From NCBI GenBank assembly GCA_023511615.1, contig JAIMBL010000026.1:1-32715 (forward strand): a DNA stretch of 32,715 nucleotides. Direction: 5' to 3'. The notes beneath the pieces are model-generated. The model was not told the DNA's origin. It saw nothing but the letters and a program-made list of their open reading frames with translations, and ran no database searches. Below, in pieces: positions 482 to 12,690 of this stretch (its first letter is position 1; each line of letters opens with the position of its first letter). Made by a program: the position numbers and the translations under genes. This DNA is from Leptolyngbyaceae cyanobacterium HOT.MB2.61 (GTDB lineage: Bacteria > Cyanobacteriota > Cyanobacteriia > Leptolyngbyales > Leptolyngbyaceae).

Positions 482-3400
482 TCAGCCCTCCGGATAGGAG
501 AAGATGATGGTGAAGAACTCCGTGGGTAGCGTACCGCCTGGACCTCCATCTGAAATGCTGATCTGGAAGGTATCTGTGGAACCGCCACCGAGCGATCGAT
601 AAACCACCCTTCCGGCATCAATATCTGCCTGGGTAAAGGTTTGACCACTGATCAGTGGTGTCCCATTCAACTCCAGTTGCCCAAAAGCGGCATTGGGGGC
701 GGCAACAAGTTGATAGATAATCTGACTGGGTGTATTATCCACATCCGTTACCTGAAGCACACCTGAACTAATCTCCGTTACCGATGCCACATCACCAGGA
801 ACTTCGATCGTCGGATTAGGCGTTAGCAAAACTGGCGCATCATTTGTTGGCGTGACGTTAATTTCGAGGATACGATTCAGCGTTGCGGTTCCATCGGTAA
901 CTGAATAGAAGAAGGAATCCCTATTCTCAGGCGTTTCGCTACCGTTGTGTTGGTAAGAAATCAAGCCTGTATCGATGTCTGCCTGGGTAAAGGTTTGACC
1001 ATTAACCAGAGCTACACCGCTCCGGAAGAGGGTACCAAACAGAGGTTGTGCCACTAGGGTATAGGTAAGCGGCTGGCTCTCCGGATCGCTGGTCTGTAAG
1101 GTAGACCGGGTAATGGTCGTAATGGCTCCTTCAGAGATAGTCAACGGTCCGTTGGAAACGACCAGCGGTGGATCGTTGACCGGAATAACACCAATGTTGA
1201 ACACGGTTGAACCAATATTGCCGCCAGCGCCATCGCTCACTGTGAAGGTAAAGCTGTCGCTGGTAGTTTCGCTACCGTTATGGCGGTAAGTGACACGGTT
1301 GAGGTTGACATCATTTTGAGTGAAGGTTTGACCCACGCTCAAGTTACTGCCATTTAACCGCACACTACCGCTGGTTGGCAGATTAGTTACGGTGTACCGC
1401 AGTTGGGATGCGGTGTTGTCTGGATCGGTGACCTGCAGCAAGGTACTGCTAATGGTGCCGCTCTGCCCCTCAGTGACTGATAAGGTCTGACGGCTTGCCA
1501 GTACGGGGTTATCGTTGATCGGGTTGACCCGGATATTGAACTGAGCCGTAGTGGGCTGGGGGCCACCATCGTTCACTGTGAATGTAAAGCTGTCGAGGGT
1601 GGTTTCACTGCCGTTATGAATATACCGGATCAGGTTTTGCCCAATGTCTGCTTGGGTAAAGGTGTTACCAGCCAAAAGGGTTGTTCCACTTCTGGTCAGT
1701 ACTCCGTTACTGGCGGCTGCGCCGATGGTGTAGACGATTTCCGCTGTGGTGTTGTCTACATCAGTGGTTCTCAACAAACCATTGCTGACCACCTGGCTGG
1801 CTCCTTCGTTCAGGGTCAGGGTGTTGTTAGTAACCAGAACTGGTGGGTCATTGAAGGCTGTGACGTTGATATCAACGGTACGGGTGACGGGTGTACCCGT
1901 TGCGGCCCCTGTGAAACCATTGTCATTGAGACTAACGGTTAATCGGTCGGAACCGAAGTAGTTAGGGTTGCCTCTGTAAACCAGGCTGGAGAGGGCAGCG
2001 GCGATCGCGTCAATCGTGCCTTCGTAAACGGCACTGGCAGTCCCGTTCGAGCCACTAATAGTAGTCAATCCAGCCGGATTCAGGTTCAGCGTTCCGTTAT
2101 TGACAGATAGGGTCAGCCGCACGGGGTTGGTACCAGAATCCACATCGGTCACAACGATCGCCCTGGCCCCATCAAATGTCAGATCAGTATCTTCGACCAC
2201 GGGCACTGTCCCTGTCGGAAGTGAGAGGAAGACGGGCGGGTCATTAACTGCCGTGACATTAATGCTGAGGGTCTTGGTATCGGTTAATGCACCACCAATT
2301 CCGGTGTTCCCCAGGTCATTGACTGTGATTGTTGCTTCATCCGGTCCGTTATAGTCTTGCAGTCCCTGATAGCGGAGAGTACTCAAGGCCGAGTTAACCG
2401 ATGTGCGGGTACCCGTGATGGTGATGGTAGATGTGCCAGCTCCACTGATAGTTGCAGGTGGAGTGCCGGTCCCAGCGGTAAGCGTTCCCTGGAGAACTGA
2501 TATCGTTACCTCCAGATTGCCGGGTGTGGACTCCCCAGCATCCACATCGGTAACTGAGATGCCGGATAGGGTGATGAGTCCATCCTCCGGCCCCGTACGA
2601 ACACCGGGCGTAATATTCAGAACAGGAGCATCGTTCACCGGATTGATGTTGACGGTCAGGGTTTGGGTGACCGAGAGAGGATTACTGGGTGAATTGCCCT
2701 GATCGCTGACGGTGATCCGAATCTGATCCTGACCATTGATATTGGGCTTGCCCTGATAGCTGAACGTACTCAACGTAGCGTTCAGATCTGCCAGTCTGCC
2801 AGTAAGGGTGACACCATTGCTGTTGTTGCCAGTGACGACCACACTTCCGGTTGGGCTGAAGCCGAGGTTGCCACCTGTTGCGGCTCCGCTGGGACCTAAG
2901 GCCGTCAGGGTCACCCGCAGATTACCATTCCCAGCATCGACATCGTTAATGCTGACACCAGGGATGCCAATGGTGGCATCTTCATCCACCACTTGCGTAC
3001 CTGGCAGGGTCAGGGTTGGAGCGTCGTTGATGGCCGTCACGTTGATCGTGAAGGTCTGAGTGGGTGAGGTATTGACCCCACCGTTATCGATGCCACCGCT
3101 GTCGCGCAGCCTGACCGTCACAATGGCGATCCCGTTAGCATCCTGGGCCAGGGCATAGCTAAGGGTGCCGTTCGGGGCGATCGTGGGTTGGCCAGTGGTG
3201 GTAAACAGGGATGGGTTGTTGTTGGCCACGATGAAGCTGACCGTCTGGTTCGACTCGTTCGGTGGTAGAGGTGTACCCGGTCCCGGACTGATGTTCGTTG
3301 CCCACAGTACCGACTGGGGTGGAGCATCTTCGGCCACCGTAATGTTGGAACCGGGGGTGAAGGTCGGCGCATCGTTCACCGGGTTAACTGTAATGGTGAA

Positions 3401-6400
3401 GATGTAGTCATCCGAGGTATCATCACCGCCGAGGGTGGTTCCACCGCTATCTTGCAAGCTAACCGTTACCGTTGCTGTTCCAAACGCATTGTCAGCCGGG
3501 GTGTAAATCAAATTGCCCGTGTTCGGGTCAATGGTGGGTTGCCCAGCGGTTGTGAACAGGTCAGGGTTGGAGTTGCTGACAATGAAGCTGAGGCTCTGGT
3601 TGGATTCATTCGCCGGACCACGGGAAATATTGGTTGCCCAACCGTTGACAGTCTGGGTTCCCGCATCCTCATTCACCACCTGGTTCGGACCGCCAGTAAA
3701 GGTCGGAGCGTCATTCACTGGACGCACATTGACAGGGATAGTGCGCGTGACGCTCTGAGCACCAGGAGCACCTGTTGCACCCTGGTCGTTCACCGTGATA
3801 GTAATGGTGTCACTGCCATTGTAATCTGGGTTGCCCCGATAGACCAGGTTTGACAGGACGTTTCGGACGCTGGCGATCGCCCCTTGAATCGTCAGGTTGC
3901 TAGCTCCGTTGGTGCTGCTAATAAAGGTTACTCCAGCCGTTGAAGCCAGACTCAGGGTACCATTTTGGGCAGACAGAATGGCTCTCACCGGGCTGCCACC
4001 CGAATCAATATCGGTGGTTTCAATACCGGTGATGGTCAGTGGTGTATCTTCGATCGCAGGCAGAGTGGTCGTTGGAACCGTTAGGGTCGGTCCATCATTG
4101 ACAGCCGCAACCGTAATATTGATCGTACCGTTGGTAGTATTCGTTCCGTCACTGGCTGAAACAACCAGAGCATCAGGACCGCTGAATTCGCTGGCAGGAG
4201 TGTAGATCAGATTATCGAGGGCCGTTTCAACCGCCGTAACCGAGCCTGTCACCGTCACACTGGAAGAATTATTGTTGGTGACCCCAGCTCCGGAGTTCAC
4301 GGTAATGATGCCGTTGGCAACCGTCAGCGTCACAGTGATTGGGTCATTTTCGGCATCGCTGAGCCGAATTCGGTTGGCATTGGAGAAGGTGAGCTGGGTG
4401 TCCTCATCCATAGTTTGAGCCCCGGGCAATGTTAGTGCGGGTGCATCGTTGACGGGAGTGACGCTAATGTTAAATGTGGTCAGGGAAAGATTCCCCGTCG
4501 AACCATCGGAAGCGGTGAAGGCAAAACTATCGCTGGTGGTTTCGCTACCGTCATGACGGTAAGAAAGCTGCCCACTGTTAATGTCTCCCTGAGTAAAAGT
4601 CTGTCCGACTGCTAATGGCGTCGTTCCCAACAACAGGGTGCCGCGGTCAGGAAGATCGCCGAGGGTGTAGGTAACATCATTCGGACCATCGGGGTCAGTC
4701 ACCAACAGAGCAGTGCTGGCGATCGCAGACGAAGCTCCTTCAGATAGAGTCAGACCTGTATTCAGCGAAACTCTGGGTGGGTCATTGACCGGAGTGATGG
4801 TGATGTTGAAGGTATTGGGTCCAACCGCTGGGGAAATGACCCCATCCGAAAGGGTGAAGCTGAAACTATCTGAAACAGTCTCACTGCCGTTATGGGAATA
4901 CCGTAGTTGTCCACTGTTAATATCCGCCTGGGTAAACGTGGTGACCACGCTGCTACCCAGCAGCAATGTGCCACTGGTCGGAGCCGAGGTGACGGAGTAA
5001 ACCAGGCTGGCTGGTAGCGGGTTGTCGTTATCTGTAGCGAGCAGAGAGCCATTGCTAATTTGAACCAATCCGCCTTCCAGCAAACTGACTCCACCGTTGT
5101 TAACCAATACGGGTGCATCATTAACGGGTGTTACATTGATGCTGAAGGTCGTCAGCGACAGGATGCCCGTTGCGGTGCCATCGGAGGCGGTAAAGGTGAA
5201 GCGATCGCTCGTCGTTTCGCTGTCATCGTGAATGTAGGAAAGCTGTCCATTCGCAATGTCACCCTGCGTAAAGGTTTGCCCACCGGTTAACGGCGTGCTT
5301 CCCAAGAGTAAAGTCCCTCGTGTAGGCAGACTGTTAATGGTGTAAGTGACAGGGCTGGGGCCATCGGGGTCAGTCACCAACAGCGCGGTATCGCTGATGG
5401 TTGAAGAAGTCCCTTCGGAGAGGGTCAACCCGGTATTAAGGGAAACTCTAGGGGCATCGTTGACGGGAGCGATCGCAATATTAAAGACATTCGGGCCCAG
5501 CGGTGCCCCAATCACTCCATCCGTAATCGTAAAGCTGAAGGTATCAGAAACCGACTCACCCCCATTGTGGGAGTACCGCAGTTGACCACTGTTCACATCC
5601 GCCTGAGTAAAGGTTGTCACGGGATTTATACCCAGAAACAGGGTACCGTTGGTGGGTGCAGAAGTAACCGAGTACACCAGGCTGGCCGGAGGCGGATTGT
5701 CATTGTCAGTAATTTGCAAAACGCTATTGCTAATCAAGAATGTGCCGCCTTCTGACAGAGAGGCTCCGGTATTCGTCGCCAGCACAGGGGCATCATTGGC
5801 TGGAGTCACCGTGATGCTGAAGGTGGCCGTTGGAATCGCACTGCTAGAGCCGTCTGATGCTGTAAAGGTAAAGCTGTCTGTCAGCGGCGATTCAGAACCA
5901 TTATGTTGATAGGTAATTCGACCCAGGTTATCGATATCGTCCTGGGTAAAGGTTTGACCCACGCTTAAAGGTGTGCCAAACCGATTGAGAGTACCACGAG
6001 TTGGCGTACTGAGGAGAGTATAAACGAGCTGGGGTGGCGGGTTGTCCTGGTCTGTAATGCGCAGCAAGGTGTTACCAATTACAGCCGTGGTACCTTCAGT
6101 CACGTTCAGTCCAGCATTTGTTGCCAGGACTGGGACAAAGTTGGTTCGGTTGACTGTGATATTGAAAGTGGCAGGGCTTCCAGCAGGAATGGTATTAACC
6201 CCATCGGTTACCGTAAAGGTAAAGCTGTCACTATTGGTATTGCTGCCATCGTGGTCGTAGGAAACGGTGCCGTTGTTGATATCAGCCTGGGTGAAAGTGT
6301 TGGTTTGGGTACCATCACGATAGAGAGTACCTCTGGCAGGTCCGGTGACGACAGTGTAGACCACCTGATCCGGCAGGGTCAGAAATTCGGCATCCGTGGC

Positions 6401-8710
6401 CGTCAGTAAGGTTGAGGTAATCCTGGCAGTCGCGTCCTGGCTCACCGTCAGCCCCAGATTCGTTGTCAGAACAGGGGCATCATTCACCGGAGCGACATTG
6501 ATACTGAAGGTGGTCAGCGGCGGAGTCAGGGTGCCTCCGGCACCATCTGAGACCGTAAATACAAAGGTGTCGTTAGTTGTCTCGCTACCGTTGTGACTAT
6601 ACCGCAACCGCGTACTGCTATTGATATCAGCCTGGGTAAAGGTGCTGCCAGCCGAGAGGGTTGTTCCATTCAGCACCAGGCTGCCATTGGCCGGCGGGCT
6701 ATTGAGGCTGTAGACAATTTGCGAGGCCAGTTGCTGTTCAATGTCGGTGACCAACAAGCTATTGCTGGTCAGAACAGTTGCCTGTCCTTCAGTAACTGCA
6801 AGGACCGTATTGCTGACCAAAATAGGCGGATCATTGACCGGAACGATATTAATGGTGAAGGTTGTGTTTCCAATGGTTCCACCTACACCATCGGAAACGC
6901 TAAAGATGAAATTGTCAATCAGAGTTTCTGAGCCATCCTGGGTGTAGGACAATCTACCTGCATTGATATCGGCCTGAGTAAAGGTGCTACCTGCGATGAT
7001 GGCAGCACCGCTCAAACTGAGATTGCCGCGATCGGGCGGATCGACCAGCGTATAGGTAACTTGATCGGCAGAATTGTTATCGTCTGTGACAAGCAGCAGC
7101 GTACTGGCAATTGTCTGCGTGCCGCCCTCACTCAAAGTTAGATTGCTCTTAGTTGCCAAAACGGGCAGGTTGTTTGCCTCTATGTTTAACTCATAGAAAC
7201 TGGCCTCATTGGTTTTGGGGAAAATCCGAATAAAGTAGTTACCCGGATCGAGGTTGGCCGAGATGTTTTCTGGTGCACCCCCTGGATTAGTTGATTGCAG
7301 TGGACTTCCACCAATGACAACGGGATTGCCTATTGAGTCAAGAATTTGAATATCCAGGTCGCCATCTAAGTTCGTGCCGCTGAGACCAGTCAGGGAAAGA
7401 TTCAGGCTAGTGGGGCTACCCAGGAAGAAGCGGTAAAAATCGACTGGATCAGTACTATCAATAGAGTCTCGATAAAAACCATTGCCATTCAATGGACCGA
7501 TAGAGAAACCAGAGGCCCCAGTATTGCCAGCGAGATCGACTCGGGTTGGCGGCAGGTAACGGATGAAAGGAGCCGTTGCCTGGTAATTTAGATCAAGGAC
7601 TGAGACAATATTGGTGAATCCGGCAAAGGTTGTGCCATTTAAGAACCAGACAACATTTTCACCCGTGGCAACGTTACGGAAGAGGATGTCGGGTTTACCG
7701 TCGAAGTTGTAATCGCCCGTGCCTTGAATCTGGTATCTCAAGTCTGGTGCGGCGGGCAGTTCGACGGTTGACACCCGCGCGGTTCCGTTCATCAGCCAGA
7801 TGATATTGCCACCGCCACCGGGAGTGTAATCTCGGAATAAAAGGTCGATGTTGCCATCGTTGTTAAAATCGGCTGTTCCCTGGAGACGGAAGTTGGTGTT
7901 GGGCAGGGACTCAAGTTCGGCGAAGCCACCCGTAAATACCGGGCCGTTCATAAACCAGACCACATTTTGGCCAGTGGCATAGTTTCGCCAGACAAGGTCG
8001 TTTTTGCCATCTTTATTGAGGTCAGCAATTCCGTTAATTTGCCAGTTGAGATCCCCGTTGGGCGGCAGAATGACCGCTGAAGTTAATGCGGCTCCATTCA
8101 TGAGCCAGATGCTGTTTTCTCCGGTGCGGTAGTTGCGCCAAACCACGTCAGCATCGCCATCGCCATCCATATCCCCCGTTGCCTGAACTGTCCAGGCAAG
8201 ATCAGGGGCTGTGGTTGTAAAAGCAAACGATGCCAAGTTTGCCCCCTCCATGAACCAGACAGAGTTTTCACCCGTTGCATAGTTACGCCAGAAAATATCT
8301 GAACGGGCATTACTGTTTGCAGTAACGATGAGGGAGTAGTTAGTGCTGGGGGTCGTGAGCGGGTCTAATGGGTTGGTGGCAGGACCCGGAGAAACATGAA
8401 TATAGTAGGTACCTGCGTCCAGGACGGCGCTGAGCGCTTCAGGGAGTGTTCCTGAATTGAAGGAACTGAGGGCAGCGCCGCCTGCAACGACAACAGCTCC
8501 CGAACTATTGAGGACTTCAACATTTGCGTCTGCACTGAGCCCCCCTAAAACCAGGGTAAAACTGCTGCTTCTGGTAAGCGTGAATCGGTAGTAGTCGCTC
8601 GCATCCAGAACGCTATTTTCTAGCCCAACAAATTCTTGAAAGGTTTGTGAACTGGCAATAGGAAATATCGTCTTTGCAGTGGCAAAAGTATTACCAACAG
8701 TATCAGGCAT
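482..8710 (-). CDS. Giant modular surface/secreted protein (PPC, FG-GAP/VCBS, CSPG and cadherin-like repeats)
   Basis: The product is 2,742 residues. Domains in order: a PPC-like beta-sandwich (about 1-133); five FG-GAP/VCBS-like repeats (about 137-385), each with a (V/I)W(F/L)-(M/L)(N/E)G core, four preceded by calcium-type DxDxDGxxD loops such as DMDGDGDAD; a second PPC-like domain (about 390-512); eight CSPG-type repeats with an FTQ-D-(I/V) signature (about 515-1422); seven cadherin-like repeats with EDxx starts and P(V/I)ND ends (about 1422-2288); and four more CSPG repeats to the C-terminus. No Sec signal peptide and no RTX nonapeptides are visible, so export may use a type I system or another route (inference). 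Such architecture is typical of extracellular adhesion or matrix proteins. The ATG has no clear ribosome-binding site. Many antisense frames in this span are shadows of the repetitive coding sequence. Confidence 0.93.
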   Translation of the reverse strand: MPDTVGNTFATAKTIFPIASSQTFQEFVGLENSVLDASDYYRFTLTRSSSFTLVLGGLSADANVEVLNSSGAVVVAGGAALSSFNSGTLPEALSAVLDAGTYYIHVSPGPATNPLDPLTTPSTNYSLIVTANSNARSDIFWRNYATGENSVWFMEGANLASFAFTTTAPDLAWTVQATGDMDGDGDADVVWRNYRTGENSIWLMNGAALTSAVILPPNGDLNWQINGIADLNKDGKNDLVWRNYATGQNVVWFMNGPVFTGGFAELESLPNTNFRLQGTADFNNDGNIDLLFRDYTPGGGGNIIWLMNGTARVSTVELPAAPDLRYQIQGTGDYNFDGKPDILFRNVATGENVVWFLNGTTFAGFTNIVSVLDLNYQATAPFIRYLPPTRVDLAGNTGASGFSIGPLNGNGFYRDSIDSTDPVDFYRFFLGSPTSLNLSLTGLSGTNLDGDLDIQILDSIGNPVVIGGSPLQSTNPGGAPENISANLDPGNYFIRIFPKTNEASFYELNIEANNLPVLATKSNLTLSEGGTQTIASTLLLVTDDNNSADQVTYTLVDPPDRGNLSLSGAAIIAGSTFTQADINAGRLSYTQDGSETLIDNFIFSVSDGVGGTIGNTTFTINIVPVNDPPILVSNTVLAVTEGQATVLTSNSLLVTDIEQQLASQIVYSLNSPPANGSLVLNGTTLSAGSTFTQADINSSTRLRYSHNGSETTNDTFVFTVSDGAGGTLTPPLTTFSINVAPVNDAPVLTTNLGLTVSQDATARITSTLLTATDAEFLTLPDQVVYTVVTGPARGTLYRDGTQTNTFTQADINNGTVSYDHDGSNTNSDSFTFTVTDGVNTIPAGSPATFNITVNRTNFVPVLATNAGLNVTEGTTAVIGNTLLRITDQDNPPPQLVYTLLSTPTRGTLNRFGTPLSVGQTFTQDDIDNLGRITYQHNGSESPLTDSFTFTASDGSSSAIPTATFSITVTPANDAPVLATNTGASLSEGGTFLISNSVLQITDNDNPPPASLVYSVTSAPTNGTLFLGINPVTTFTQADVNSGQLRYSHNGGESVSDTFSFTITDGVIGAPLGPNVFNIAIAPVNDAPRVSLNTGLTLSEGTSSTISDTALLVTDPDGPSPVTYTINSLPTRGTLLLGSTPLTGGQTFTQGDIANGQLSYIHDDSETTSDRFTFTASDGTATGILSLTTFSINVTPVNDAPVLVNNGGVSLLEGGLVQISNGSLLATDNDNPLPASLVYSVTSAPTSGTLLLGSSVVTTFTQADINSGQLRYSHNGSETVSDSFSFTLSDGVISPAVGPNTFNITITPVNDPPRVSLNTGLTLSEGASSAIASTALLVTDPDGPNDVTYTLGDLPDRGTLLLGTTPLAVGQTFTQGDINSGQLSYRHDGSETTSDSFAFTASDGSTGNLSLTTFNISVTPVNDAPALTLPGAQTMDEDTQLTFSNANRIRLSDAENDPITVTLTVANGIITVNSGAGVTNNNSSSVTVTGSVTAVETALDNLIYTPASEFSGPDALVVSASDGTNTTNGTINITVAAVNDGPTLTVPTTTLPAIEDTPLTITGIETTDIDSGGSPVRAILSAQNGTLSLASTAGVTFISSTNGASNLTIQGAIASVRNVLSNLVYRGNPDYNGSDTITITVNDQGATGAPGAQSVTRTIPVNVRPVNDAPTFTGGPNQVVNEDAGTQTVNGWATNISRGPANESNQSLSFIVSNSNPDLFTTAGQPTIDPNTGNLIYTPADNAFGTATVTVSLQDSGGTTLGGDDTSDDYIFTITVNPVNDAPTFTPGSNITVAEDAPPQSVLWATNISPGPGTPLPPNESNQTVSFIVANNNPSLFTTTGQPTIAPNGTLSYALAQDANGIAIVTVRLRDSGGIDNGGVNTSPTQTFTINVTAINDAPTLTLPGTQVVDEDATIGIPGVSINDVDAGNGNLRVTLTALGPSGAATGGNLGFSPTGSVVVTGNNSNGVTLTGRLADLNATLSTFSYQGKPNINGQDQIRITVSDQGNSPSNPLSVTQTLTVNINPVNDAPVLNITPGVRTGPEDGLITLSGISVTDVDAGESTPGNLEVTISVLQGTLTAGTGTPPATISGAGTSTITITGTRTSVNSALSTLRYQGLQDYNGPDEATITVNDLGNTGIGGALTDTKTLSINVTAVNDPPVFLSLPTGTVPVVEDTDLTFDGARAIVVTDVDSGTNPVRLTLSVNNGTLNLNPAGLTTISGSNGTASAVYEGTIDAIAAALSSLVYRGNPNYFGSDRLTVSLNDNGFTGAATGTPVTRTVDINVTAFNDPPVLVTNNTLTLNEGASQVVSNGLLRTTDVDNTTAEIVYTIGAAASNGVLTRSGTTLLAGNTFTQADIGQNLIRYIHNGSETTLDSFTFTVNDGGPQPTTAQFNIRVNPINDNPVLASRQTLSVTEGQSGTISSTLLQVTDPDNTASQLRYTVTNLPTSGSVRLNGSNLSVGQTFTQNDVNLNRVTYRHNGSETTSDSFTFTVSDGAGGNIGSTVFNIGVIPVNDPPLVVSNGPLTISEGAITTITRSTLQTSDPESQPLTYTLVAQPLFGTLFRSGVALVNGQTFTQADIDTGLISYQHNGSETPENRDSFFYSVTDGTATLNRILEINVTPTNDAPVLLTPNPTIEVPGDVASVTEISSGVLQVTDVDNTPSQIIYQLVAAPNAAFGQLELNGTPLISGQTFTQADIDAGRVVYRSLGGGSTDTFQISISDGGPGGTLPTEFFTIIFSYPEG
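4446..5795 (-). repeat. Two-domain super-repeat inside the giant gene
   Basis: CSPG repeats 5 and 6 (about 5795-5122) and repeats 7 and 8 (about 5121-4446) form two tandem units of roughly 675 bp. Repeat 5 resembles 7 more than 6: both share SLVYSVTSAP and VTTFTQAD. Repeat 6 resembles 8: both share RVSLNTGLTLSEG and FTQGDI. The pattern implies duplication of a two-domain block rather than of single domains. Boundaries are approximate. Confidence 0.75.
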
Positions 8711-8922: not shown

Positions 8923-10278
8923 TCAGTAATTTCGATTTGGGGTTGCCAGGTTGCGAAACTGGGTAAATTGAGACTCAAACAAGAGTTTGACCGTTCCCGT
9001 CGGCCCATTGCGATGTTTGGAGATGATCACTTCTGCGATGCCGCGATCGGGGGTGTCGGGGTTGTAGTACTCATCCCGGTAAAGCATCATAATCAGGTCT
9101 GCATCCTGTTCAATCGCTCCTGACTCTCGTAAATCCGACATCATTGGGCGCTTGTTGGTGCGTGACTCCACACTACGGCTTAATTGCGACAGTGCTATCA
9201 CCGGAACACTCAGCTCCCGTGCCAGACTCTTGAGCGCCCGTGTCACCTTCGATAGCTCCTGGACCCGGTTGTCTCCGCCCCCTTCCATCAACTGTAAGTA
9301 GTCCAGTATAACTAGACCCAGGGCACCTCCCTGCTCGGCCTGAAGCCGTCGTGCTTTTGAGCGCATTTCGGTAATGCTGATACTGGGTGTGTCATCGATA
9401 AAAATTGGCAATTGGGAAAGGGTACTGATAGCATGCCCCAAAGGTTCCCACTCATTCTGGCTGATTCGCCCTGCCCGCAGTCGCCCGCTCTCAATCCGAA
9501 CTTCGCTAGCCAGCAGCCGCTGTACCAGTTGCTCCTTTGACATTTCCAGGCTGAACACGGCAACAGGCAGTTTATGGAAAGCAGCGATATTGCGAGCTAT
9601 GTTGAGGACGAAACTCGTTTTCCCCATCGATGGACGACCCGCCACGATGATCAGGTCTGAACGCTGAAACCCTTGAGTCATTGCATCCAGGTCATAGAAG
9701 CCACAGGATAACCCTGGTAGCACCATTCCCAACGAACGGCTTTCGATGTCAGTAAAGGTATGAGTCAGGATATCAGCCGTTGCCATTAAACCCTGTTGAG
9801 GGCGCTCCTGGGTGATGCTAAAAATCTTCTGCTCCGCTTCATCCAGGACATGCTCTAAGTCAGTGGAAGAGTCATGTCCCAGGTGAGCAATTTCGTTACC
9901 TGCTCGAATGAGCTTGCGGCGCATGTACTTGTCTGTCACCAGCGCCGCGTACTGATCAATGTTGACGGCACTTACAGTACGGTCAACCAGTTGTACCAGC
10001 TTACCTTGTCCACCGACCTTCTCCAGCATCCCCCGATCGCGCAGCCAGGAAGTCATACTCATCAGGTCAGTGGGGTTTCCCTGACTCTGTAAAACCAGCG
10101 CTGCTCGATAAATTTCCTGATGGGCACTTAGATAAAACGCCTCTGGGCGCAGTAAGTCAGCAACCCGGTTAATGGCCTCCGGATCTAACAAGATACCACC
10201 CAAAATCGCTTCCTCTGCCTCAATATTCTGGGGGGGCAGGCGATCGCTGTAGGCCTGAAAATTAAGTTCCTGAACCAT
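8923..10278 (-). CDS. dnaB: Replicative DNA helicase DnaB
   Basis: Hexameric 5'-3' helicase that unwinds DNA at the replication fork and works with DnaG primase. The N-terminal domain begins RLPPQNIEAEEAILGG. The RecA-like domain has a Walker A motif (GRPSMGKTS), a Walker B segment (LVILDYLQLM) and the ALSQLSRSVE motif. From the ATG at 10278 the protein is 451 residues, normal for the family. This start gives the MVQELNF N-terminus expected of cyanobacterial DnaB, although AGGAG lies unusually close to it; a TTG at 10305 is the alternative. The Walker A region is uninterrupted, so there is no intein. The gene lies downstream of rplI but behind a strong terminator, so it probably has its own promoter in 10306-10571, where a LexA-like box occurs. 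Confidence 0.97.
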   Translation of the reverse strand: MVQELNFQAYSDRLPPQNIEAEEAILGGILLDPEAINRVADLLRPEAFYLSAHQEIYRAALVLQSQGNPTDLMSMTSWLRDRGMLEKVGGQGKLVQLVDRTVSAVNIDQYAALVTDKYMRRKLIRAGNEIAHLGHDSSTDLEHVLDEAEQKIFSITQERPQQGLMATADILTHTFTDIESRSLGMVLPGLSCGFYDLDAMTQGFQRSDLIIVAGRPSMGKTSFVLNIARNIAAFHKLPVAVFSLEMSKEQLVQRLLASEVRIESGRLRAGRISQNEWEPLGHAISTLSQLPIFIDDTPSISITEMRSKARRLQAEQGGALGLVILDYLQLMEGGGDNRVQELSKVTRALKSLARELSVPVIALSQLSRSVESRTNKRPMMSDLRESGAIEQDADLIMMLYRDEYYNPDTPDRGIAEVIISKHRNGPTGTVKLLFESQFTQFRNLATPNRNY

Positions 10279-10452
10279 TCTCCTGATTCTTCTGGCAACT
10301 GCCAAACCTGAGGTTTCTACTCGGCCCCTGATAAAGCCAAGCCGTACAATCCTACACTATATCTAGGGCTTTTAGTTGAAGCTTAAAATTTAAGCACTAA
10401 ACCTGGTGTAGGTAGTATAGGTTCTTTCTCCCAAAAGCTTGATTTGTCTATT

Positions 10453-10466
10453 CGTACCTTTGTACT
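10453..10466 (-). promoter_or_regulatory. LexA-like box upstream of dnaB
   Basis: The minus strand reads AGTACAAAGGTACG, which fits the cyanobacterial LexA consensus RGTACNNNDGTWCB (recalled from Anabaena work). It lies 175 nt upstream of the dnaB start and downstream of the rplI terminator, in the region that must hold dnaB's own promoter. In a manual scan of GTAC sites, only this one and the site before the parM-like gene had GTWC at the right spacing. About 0.6 such pairs are expected by chance, so support is moderate at best. Confidence 0.4.
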
Positions 10467-10656: not shown

Positions 10657-11127
10657 CTACTCGCTGGCTTTCGCAGGTACTACCTGGATCTCTACTGTCG
10701 CTGTCACCTCTGGGTGCAACTTGATCTCGACTCTGTAAGAACCCAGCTTATGAATATCGGGCACAGTAATTCCGCGGCGGTCAATTTCCTGCTTCGTAGC
10801 TTCCCGAATAGCCGTTGCCACATCCTGGTTAGTAACCGTACCAAAGATAGCATCCTTCTCGCCAGCCTGCTTGGCAATTGTGAACCGCCCCACTGTTTCC
10901 AGGGCTTGTTTGAGGGTTTCCGCCTGCTGTTTTTCTTCCAGGAGGCGCTGCCGTTCCAGCTCTTTGCGCCGTTCAACTTGCTTTAAAATGCCAGGGTTAG
11001 CCTGCACCGCCAATCCCTGGGGAATTAAATAGTTACGGGCATAGCCCGGAGCAACATCCACCAAATCTCCTGCCCGGCCCAATTTGCTGACGTCTCTATT
11101 AAGAACTAACTGCACACGCTTCGCCAT
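10657..11127 (-). CDS. rplI: 50S ribosomal protein L9
   Basis: Structural protein of the large ribosomal subunit. The N-terminal domain carries [17 protein letters not shown] and [14 protein letters not shown] charged helix follows ([17 protein letters not shown]), and the C-terminal domain ends in [18 protein letters not shown]. Length is 156 residues, as usual. I chose the ATG at 11127 over the in-frame start seven codons upstream because AGGAAG lies just before it. A strong hairpin follows the gene. The leader holds an inverted repeat (GGAGGA/TCCTCC, 11187-11210) of unknown role. Confidence 0.97.
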
Positions 11128-11234: not shown

Positions 11235-11283
11235 CCTTCGTAGGAACCTTTTATGGAACGTCTATGGAACGTCCCTACGAAGG
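11235..11283. repeat. Palindromic intergenic element with two tandem 11-mers
   Basis: CCTTCGTAGG (11235-11244) and CCTACGAAGG (11274-11283) are a perfect 10-bp inverted repeat. Between them are two exact tandem copies of TATGGAACGTC (11252-11262 and 11263-11273). The element lies 20 bp past the stop of the ParR-like gene. It resembles the GTAGGGACGTTCC-type palindromes common in cyanobacterial spacers (recalled), and could act as a terminator. The 11-bp period also matches ParR iterons of plasmid parC sites, a speculative alternative. Confidence 0.6.
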
Positions 11284-11303: not shown

Positions 11304-11564
11304 TCAAAGCCCAAGAAGTTCGTCTAACGCATCCAGCGCTTCGCATCTAATCGAAGTAGATGCTTCGACTGCTGCGATCGGGGTTTGGATGCCCCAGTTT
11401 GCTGTTTCCTCAACTACCCGACGTGGTCCACTCAGGTACTCATCTGCATATCGACGGAAGACAGCCTCCACTGCGGCTCGTGGATTTTTCAGGCCCCACT
11501 CTGCAGCAATCAGGCTGGCCTTCTCCAACACGTCTCGGCTGAGCCTTACTTTGTTGTCATACAT
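11304..11564 (-). CDS. Small ribbon-helix-helix-like protein, candidate ParR partner of the ParM-like actin
   Basis: An 86-residue protein encoded 13 bp downstream of the parM-like gene, so surely co-transcribed. The N-terminal half fits a ribbon-helix-helix fold: a short strand (KVRLS, 5-9), helix A (about 10-23), a turn (LKNPR, 25-29) and helix B (about 30-44). Residues 23-34 (WGLKNPRAAVEA) recur at 57-68 as WGIQTPIAAVEA, an internal duplication with a 34-residue period. The C-terminus is acidic and leucine-rich (DALDELLGL), which could be a filament-binding tail. In plasmid type II segregation the gene after parM encodes ParR, an RHH protein that binds parC. Fold and role are inferred from pattern and context; I do not recognise the exact family. 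Confidence 0.8.
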   Translation of the reverse strand: MYDNKVRLSRDVLEKASLIAAEWGLKNPRAAVEAVFRRYADEYLSGPRRVVEETANWGIQTPIAAVEASTSIRCEALDALDELLGL

Positions 11565-11577
11565 TGCGATACTCCAT

Positions 11578-12588
11578 TCAAAAACTTAACTGTGCTCCGT
11601 TGAGAATGGGAAACAAACCCCGCACATTGGCAAATTGGGGGTCACCCATAACTGCGAACAGTTTGCGCCCTTGCAGTCGCTCCGAGATCAGGTGAGAACC
11701 ACCGCCTGTAACCAGGAAACGGGTTACCCGTGCCATATAGGGAGTGTACTGGGCTCGTACCGTTTGAAAGATGCCTTTAAACCAGGGATCGAGGTGTTCT
11801 TCCAGCCAGGGCAACCAGGACAGGCCAGTATCGGCATAGACGTGCCCGGCTCGAAAACCATCCATAACAATGCTGGGGTCTGCCGAAGTCCCAAGAGCAT
11901 CAGTCAGACGGCGATCGAAACTGATGGAGGTTGCCAGTTCGTAGGTGCCGCCTCGATCCATCACGTTTTCGTCGATGACTTCACCTTCGGCATCCACCAG
12001 ACGGGTCAACCAGGTACCCCCTCCAATGTCCACTACAATCGTGTAACCACTCTCGGGAATCAGCCCCATCCGTCGGGCATAGTGGTAAGCCCCCATTCCT
12101 TCCCGCTCAACTTCAACCCGTTCAACCAAAACCCGATAATCGATACCGTTGCGTTTGAATTCGTGCATTCCTAAAAGCTGCTGTCGAATGGCATCTTCGC
12201 TTTTGACCGGGTCTGGGGTTGAGGCATAAACGCTGAGGGTAAATTCGGTGGTGTTATCCCAGGGTTCGAGGCAGGCATAGAGGTGGAGTCGTGACAGTTC
12301 AACTTTGTTTTCAATCACGGTTTGCTGCTGCCGACGGTATTTGTAGGCCTGCCCACCAAAGTGAAAGCGAGTACCATCGGGCAGTTCAACCAGAGGAGAC
12401 GCTTCGGAGTAGCGGACGGAGTCCCGTCCCTGGGGAAGTTGAAACCGGACGGAGCGAATGGCTTTCGGGTGCCCCACCCCATCCCAAAATTTGAGGTCGT
12501 AGTTACCCGCATCCAGGGCCAGGATGCGACTAGTAAGAGAATTGGCAGATTCTTTTTTAGCTCTCGCCTGTCGGGTAGCGGTTGTCAT
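11578..12588 (-). CDS. ParM/StbA-like actin-family ATPase
   Basis: A 336-residue actin-fold ATPase that probably polymerises with ATP. The phosphate-1 motif is LDAGNYDLK (25-33), phosphate-2 is VVDIGGGTW (185-193), and the adenosine motif is FLVTGGGSHL (291-300). A basic, disordered-looking N-terminus (1-20) precedes the fold. The start at 12588 has a GAGGA ribosome-binding site. Plasmid homologues push replicated DNA apart; chromosomal members in cyanobacteria lack a settled role. The gene heads a two-gene operon with a ParR-like protein. Its promoter has good -35/-10 elements at 12690-12662 and overlaps a LexA-like box, suggesting induction by DNA damage. No replication initiator or transposase is nearby, so an integrated plasmid is not evident. 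Confidence 0.88.
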   Translation of the reverse strand: MTTATRQARAKKESANSLTSRILALDAGNYDLKFWDGVGHPKAIRSVRFQLPQGRDSVRYSEASPLVELPDGTRFHFGGQAYKYRRQQQTVIENKVELSRLHLYACLEPWDNTTEFTLSVYASTPDPVKSEDAIRQQLLGMHEFKRNGIDYRVLVERVEVEREGMGAYHYARRMGLIPESGYTIVVDIGGGTWLTRLVDAEGEVIDENVMDRGGTYELATSISFDRRLTDALGTSADPSIVMDGFRAGHVYADTGLSWLPWLEEHLDPWFKGIFQTVRAQYTPYMARVTRFLVTGGGSHLISERLQGRKLFAVMGDPQFANVRGLFPILNGAQLSF

Positions 12589-12650
12589 AGATTCCTCGCT
12601 TATACTGATTCCTGGCGGTGAGTTTTGGGTCGTTCTCGATTGTCCCCATC

Positions 12651-12664
12651 AGTACACATGTACT
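12651..12664 (-). promoter_or_regulatory. LexA-like box over the parM-like promoter
   Basis: The minus strand reads AGTACATGTGTACT. AGTACA and TGTACT are inverted arms around two bases, and the whole fits RGTACNNNDGTWCB on both strands. It overlaps the last three bases of the -10 hexamer and covers the predicted transcription start, as expected for a repressor site. The match and position are seen directly; LexA binding is inferred from the recalled consensus. Confidence 0.6.
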
Positions 12665-12690
12665 ATACAGGGTCCATGAATCTTTTGCAA
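12662..12690 (-). promoter_or_regulatory. Sigma-70-type promoter of the parM-like operon
   Basis: On the minus strand the -35 is TTGCAA (12690-12685, 4 of 6) and the -10 is TATAGT (12667-12662, 5 of 6), separated by 17 nt. The predicted start of transcription is near 12655, leaving a leader of about 66 nt before the ATG at 12588. The -10 abuts and overlaps the LexA-like palindrome. Confidence 0.65.

Follow-up and report, generated by a model that had tools for sequence, protein, structure and literature searches.

The gene pair and its surroundings

The window, meaning the whole 32,715 nt stretch of DNA analyzed here (Leptolyngbyaceae cyanobacterium HOT.MB2.61, GCA_023511615.1, contig JAIMBL010000026.1), carries two adjacent minus-strand genes, one for a ParM-like actin-fold ATPase of 336 aa (11578..12588) and, 13 nt downstream on the same strand, one for a ParR/FcmC-like small protein of 86 aa (11304..11564). 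Both open reading frames and the spacing between them are as given in an earlier note on this DNA, and a GAGGA precedes the ATPase start codon. The core-gene neighbors named in that note were also recovered: RplI and a type I (AroH-type) chorismate mutase are confirmed by Pfam, and DnaB (8923-10305) is identified by its translation and by tblastn matches beside rplI in four relatives. Directly 3' of the small gene lies an inverted repeat (11235-11283; 23-nt arms, 78% complementary, with a 3-nt loop), which may be either a terminator or a mobile repeat of small size. Elsewhere on the minus strand, an open reading frame of 2742 residues (482-8710) contains numerous repeated segments that resemble cadherin-like and FG-GAP repeats, and its product is probably a surface or adhesion protein.

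The small gene follows the ATPase gene in all 64 loci that are readable downstream, and the pair is adjacent, intact and in the same order in 63 of the 64 readable related loci, so that its adjacency exceeds chance and the type II partition gene order recognized in the earlier note is borne out. The locus left out of the 63 (L063, Alkalinema bin RU_4_3, downstream of a match ending at 10933) shows the conserved domain of the small protein in parts only; its frame leaves that domain past AWGLK, but the C-terminal motif is read in frame again, a pattern that compensating frameshifts or errors of assembly would produce. An overlap of about 20 bases joins the two genes in most relatives, where the ATPase ends in CMTTK; the spacing is 13 nt in the window and about 190 in a same-genus relative (L068). 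No third neighbor gene is shared across the loci: only the closest relatives have rplI nearby, and four of these have dnaB.

The ATPase

The window ATPase matches Pfam ALP_N above the cut-off and MreB-like_C more weakly, and PHROG partition family 691 is hit at 1e-18. An alignment of 23 sequences, a plasmid relative (below) among them, shows no variation in the phosphate-1, phosphate-2 and adenosine motifs or at D26, G28, K33, E163, D187, GGG189-191, T192 and GG295-296. AlphaFold predicts a full actin fold (pLDDT 83.9, pTM 0.81), and a Foldseek search with this model returned the archaeal actin Ta0583 first (2.7e-18), with pSK41 ParM at 3.6e-17 and CorM at 1.3e-16. The ALP_N match, the invariant nucleotide motifs and the predicted fold sustain the earlier reading of an actin-fold ATPase with intact motifs, and a ParM-like actin fold with intact ATP motifs is what type II partition (ParMRC) ATPases have. 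From its fold and motifs, the protein would very probably polymerize with ATP into filaments. Its N-terminus bears a short basic motif, MxTxTRxxRxxK, followed by a variable linker. The Pfam scan gave no match of the window ATPase to MreB_Mbl, and the genome's own MreB is encoded elsewhere (E = 2.7e-147), so the pair is no MreB replacement.

The small protein

Three parts can be distinguished in the small protein: an RHH-like N-terminal domain, a linker variable in length and sequence, and a conserved C-terminal CEALDALDELLGL helix. The N-terminal domain has the pattern DNKVRLSxDVLEKA..EWGLKNxRAAVEAVFRxY, in which D3, N4, K5, R7 and S9 are invariant, and comprises two helices; AlphaFold places helices at 10-23, 28-44 and 75-84. 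The protein has no Pfam match, RHH families included, a PDB profile search with it returned nothing, and an hhalign comparison with one known RHH protein failed to support an RHH relationship. Foldseek with the small-protein model gave RHH folds prominently, with a best E of 0.78 that is not significant. The missing profile match is weak evidence, because pSK41 ParR and AlfB are likewise without a Pfam match above the cut-off. The arrangement plausibly represents a tailed RHH protein; the RHH-like character proposed in the earlier note thus finds backing in the predicted RHH-type helices, but not in any significant profile or fold match. Such a protein would be the adaptor of the ATPase, with a dimerizing RHH-like domain, a flexible linker and a C-terminal amphipathic helix that would most likely dock onto the filament in the manner of the ParR tail and ParM.

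Chromosomal residence, distribution and selection

The ATPase is present at ≥68% identity in 40 of the 42 genomes of the window's family (in one of these as a short fragment). In each of the eight relatives that are assembled in five or fewer contigs (G012, G015, G016, G017, G018, G019, G025 and G052), it lies on contig C1, which is 5.3 to 7.3 Mb long. The chromosomal location suggested in the earlier note is borne out by these chromosome-sized contigs, and conservation of the pair in other cyanobacterial chromosomes, which that note had asked about, was found. The named hosts include Leptolyngbya, Stenomitos, Tildeniella, Nodosilinea, Phormidesmis, Myxacorys, Oculatella, Alkalinema and others, genera that we take to be filamentous cyanobacteria; a few host metagenome bins carry ambiguous names, e.g., Cyanothece. 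Among the hosts is the laboratory strain Nodosilinea nodulosa PCC 7104 (L049). Purifying selection on the pair is strong; dN/dS is 0.028 against the same-genus relative L068, a comparison in which dS is near saturation.

These observations bear on whether the pair is a plasmid partition locus that integrated recently or is defective, and that has no present role. The closest relative outside the lineage is indeed plasmid-borne: the best plasmid match is on Allocoleopsis pMIC7113.05 (48% identity over 99% of the length), and the remaining plasmids reach at most 31%. Lineage-wide conservation, purifying selection and chromosome-sized contigs speak against such an origin, as does the lack of any relative among viral contigs, for which reason a viral origin was also rejected. 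Presence in 40 of 42 family genomes largely refutes the reading, and we regard it as extremely unlikely; the possibility that the pair occurs only on recent plasmid integrations is contradicted by the distribution and the contigs together. In one lineage of thread-forming cyanobacteria, the pair has become a fixture of the chromosome.

Relationship to FcmBC and CorMR

A ParM-like gene with a downstream partner, FcmB/FcmC, has been described on the Nostoc punctiforme chromosome (mSphere 2025, PMC12645912); FcmBC is needed for rod shape, its filaments lie at the membrane around the cell, nucleoids show no obvious change, and FcmB groups with AlfA (PMC12645912). A Nostoc-type ATPase example from our set matches CorM (PDB 9RMI, from Anabaena PCC 7120) over its full length at 7.5e-224. 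The Nostoc-type gene is in 53 of 53 genomes of one genus, and a family search found it in all genomes examined of a heterocyst-former-like family (f7) that is taken to be Nostocaceae from its plasmid matches, among other indications. Because the gene is universal in that genus and groups with AlfA, as reported for FcmB (PMC12645912), we infer that CorM/CorR is FcmB/FcmC.

Our first hypothesis was that the window pair is FcmBC. The two have much in common: both consist of a chromosomal ParM-like ATPase gene and then a gene for a small ParR-like protein, both occur in filamentous cyanobacteria, and both ATPases have an N-terminal tail. The ATPases are distant homologues by profile comparison (E = 1.6e-4 over 307 columns), but pairwise BLAST finds only a 54-residue patch at E = 0.059, and the adaptors do not align at E ≤ 100. 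The Nostoc adaptor is 149-172 aa long and starts with an invariant MFQWSKK, whereas the window adaptor has 86 aa and lacks this start. In two trees, in which the deep branches are long and have weak support, the window type forms one supported group and the Nostoc type a separate one beside AlfA, and an AU test rejects placing the two types in one clade (p-AU 0.0007). Orthology was therefore rejected for the ATPase (BLAST and AU test) as well as for the adaptor (absence of an alignment and of the MFQWSKK start), and the pairwise comparison and AU test rule out the first hypothesis. That the pair is the FcmBC/CorMR of another lineage, as gene order, chromosomal location, filamentous hosts and the distant ATPase homology might suggest, is in our estimation very unlikely; one relative (G007) has both types.

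By sequence and phylogeny, then, the window pair is a family separate from FcmBC/CorMR, the second such chromosomal pair in cyanobacteria after the one already described (PMC12645912). The expectation in the earlier note that a chromosomal actin module in a cyanobacterium would be little described has been overtaken since 2025 by FcmBC (PMC12645912) and CorM/CorR (PDB 9RMI).

Of 386 genomes sampled across the phylum, 6 have the window type and 61 the Nostoc (FcmB) type, with none carrying both; with so few window-type genomes this absence of overlap is not statistically telling by itself. In the window's own family, 40 of 42 genomes have the window type and 2 of 42 the FcmB type (L158 of G007 and L159 of G008), G007 carrying both. 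In G008, whose genome is just 69% complete, the copy appears broken and may have been mis-binned. The near-complementary distribution suggests that the two types stand in for each other; as it tracks lineages, it neither counts as independent evidence nor proves substitution.

Relationship to plasmid and other ParM systems

Phylogenetically, the ParM of pMIC7113.05 sits on a long branch within the window-type group (99/99 in the seven-row set). The next gene on this plasmid encodes a 109-aa protein ending in ALDALLSA, where the window's small protein has ALDELLGL; the plasmid ATPase differs from that of the window in lacking the basic N-terminal motif, and a LexA-type box (below) was not found upstream of the plasmid gene. 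A perfect 13-nt inverted repeat upstream of the plasmid gene (L123 4921-4953) differs from the palindrome at the chromosomal loci and is a possible operator.

Fold and gene order are those of type II partition systems (R1/R100 ParMRC, pSK41, AlfAB, Alp7AR), with an actin-fold ATPase and a small adaptor, and the pair would descend from such a ParM/ParR system, now resident on the chromosome and kept in one filamentous cyanobacterial lineage. Unlike those plasmid systems, it is chromosomal, has no Pfam StbA_N match and shows no iteron array. The absence of a visible parC array at the locus is no evidence that iterons are absent, since the scan set only the R100 control apart from shuffles and failed to separate pSK41, AlfA and Alp7A from them. 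Its place on chromosome-sized contigs in near-complete relatives means that the pair is not a plasmid-borne stabilizing system. The cParMR systems of Desulfitobacterium and Clostridium are also chromosomal ParM-like genes, and they form filaments (PMC12270681); they are distant from the window pair, Dh-cParM1 matching only at E = 0.069. Further ParM-like genes were seen in Nostocaceae-like genomes (L104-L108, L112, L147 and L152), many on small contigs and most followed by a small open reading frame with its own conserved C-terminal tail; they are a rich set of uncharacterized type II partition systems.

The promoter and its LexA-type box

Upstream of the ATPase gene, all on the minus strand, are a predicted sigma-70-type promoter, TTGCAA-17-TATAGT (12662..12690, 9 of 12 consensus positions), a LexA-type box AGTACATGTGTACT that overlaps its -10 element (12651..12664), and a conserved element TGGGGACAA (12640..12648). 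The region has 2 sigma-70-type sites versus 1.2 in shuffles, so that the promoter call is weak by itself; TATAGT is conserved together with the box. The 63 orthologous upstream regions share, in whole or in part, TATAGTAC-N4-GTACTAATGGGGACAA. With at most one mismatch, AGTACN4GTACT is found in 44 of the 63, against 9 of 1260 shuffles and about 2% of random 250-base windows from the same loci, windows over the promoter included; six Nostoc-type upstream regions match it at best with 2 mismatches. The cyanobacterial LexA box is RGTACNNNDGTWCB, with consensus AGTACWNWTGTACT (PMC3091678). The window's box fits this pattern and closely resembles the consensus, and exact matches are in the window and in 27 of the 63 upstream regions overall versus 0.5% of shuffles. 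The palindrome has 3 exact copies in the 5.29-Mb genome, no more than a backward-read control pattern, so the evidence for the box is its conservation across species and not its rarity. GGG[GTA]ACA occurs in 53 of the 63 regions versus 3.7% of shuffles; its distance to the GTACT half-site is mostly 8 or 28-29 bases, two spacings that lie two DNA turns apart. A second box, AGTACAAAGGTACG (10453-10466, minus strand), lies about 150 nt upstream of dnaB and also fits RGTACNNNDGTWCB, for which roughly 0.6 chance matches are expected in the window by our estimate.

This promoter, which is LexA-type by its match to the published box and is conserved among orthologues, was absent from the earlier note. 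Lying over the predicted -10 TATAGT, the box is positioned suitably for repression, and the pair is probably repressed by LexA or by the RHH-like protein that it encodes. Such a promoter could belong to a stress module that DNA damage or another LexA signal induces and whose filaments alter the nucleoid or cell shape during repair. Its conservation over the -10 element fits this, and lexA of this genome is itself preceded, at 57 nt, by an exact RGTACNNNDGTWCB match; recA of the same genome has no such box upstream in our search, cyanobacterial LexA controls non-repair genes too (PMC3091678), and the palindrome might serve the RHH-like protein as its own operator. We consider this stress role unlikely, to about the same degree as one in chromosome segregation or nucleoid positioning, in which the filament would move or space the copies of the chromosome through small protein bound to sites on them. 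The latter would agree with the type II order and fold and with the basic residues that are invariant along the predicted ribbon strand, and the palindrome and TGGGGACAA could be binding sites; the mere 3 exact palindrome copies, the unseen iteron array (a weak test) and the Nostoc analogue without an obvious nucleoid defect (PMC12645912) weigh against it.

What the pair may do

At this locus is a conserved, chromosomal, selected two-gene ParM/ParR-type module that has a conserved promoter and is distinct from FcmBC. We judge it about evenly balanced whether the pair is a second, separately chromosomal ParM/ParR-derived filament module that acts, most likely, as a cell-shape cytoskeleton, and among the roles considered this one comes first. 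The pair would then most likely no longer segregate a replicon but serve as a cytoskeletal module, probably for cell shape, in parallel to FcmBC/CorMR; lineage-wide chromosomal conservation, the near-complementary FcmB distribution and the lack of a visible centromere array point this way. The earlier note had left segregation and a cytoskeletal role side by side, and in the FcmBC counterpart it is cell shape, not segregation, that is served, with no obvious nucleoid defect (PMC12645912). What speaks against an FcmBC-like role is that the window's small protein does not begin with MFQWSKK, a start that never varies in the Nostoc adaptor. A DNA-linked role fits as well, since the invariant K5, R7 and S9 of the RHH-like ribbon would suit DNA binding and the LexA-type site, at which LexA or the RHH protein itself may repress, points to DNA metabolism. 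A further reading, which we hold only tentatively, is that a second plasmid partition actin was independently turned into a chromosomal cell system and came under the control of LexA, so that DNA damage, or some related signal, would act on both the filament and its DNA-binding-type adaptor.

The conserved LexA-type promoter gives a concrete handle on any link of the pair to DNA damage. If the cytoskeletal reading is right, partition actins of plasmids would have been fixed on chromosomes at least two times in thread-forming cyanobacteria, in lineages that barely overlap. One could then ask by direct comparison whether multicellular cells put two unrelated ParM-derived modules to the same use, and the window and Nostoc modules would bear on the changes needed to turn a DNA-pulling machine into a cytoskeleton.
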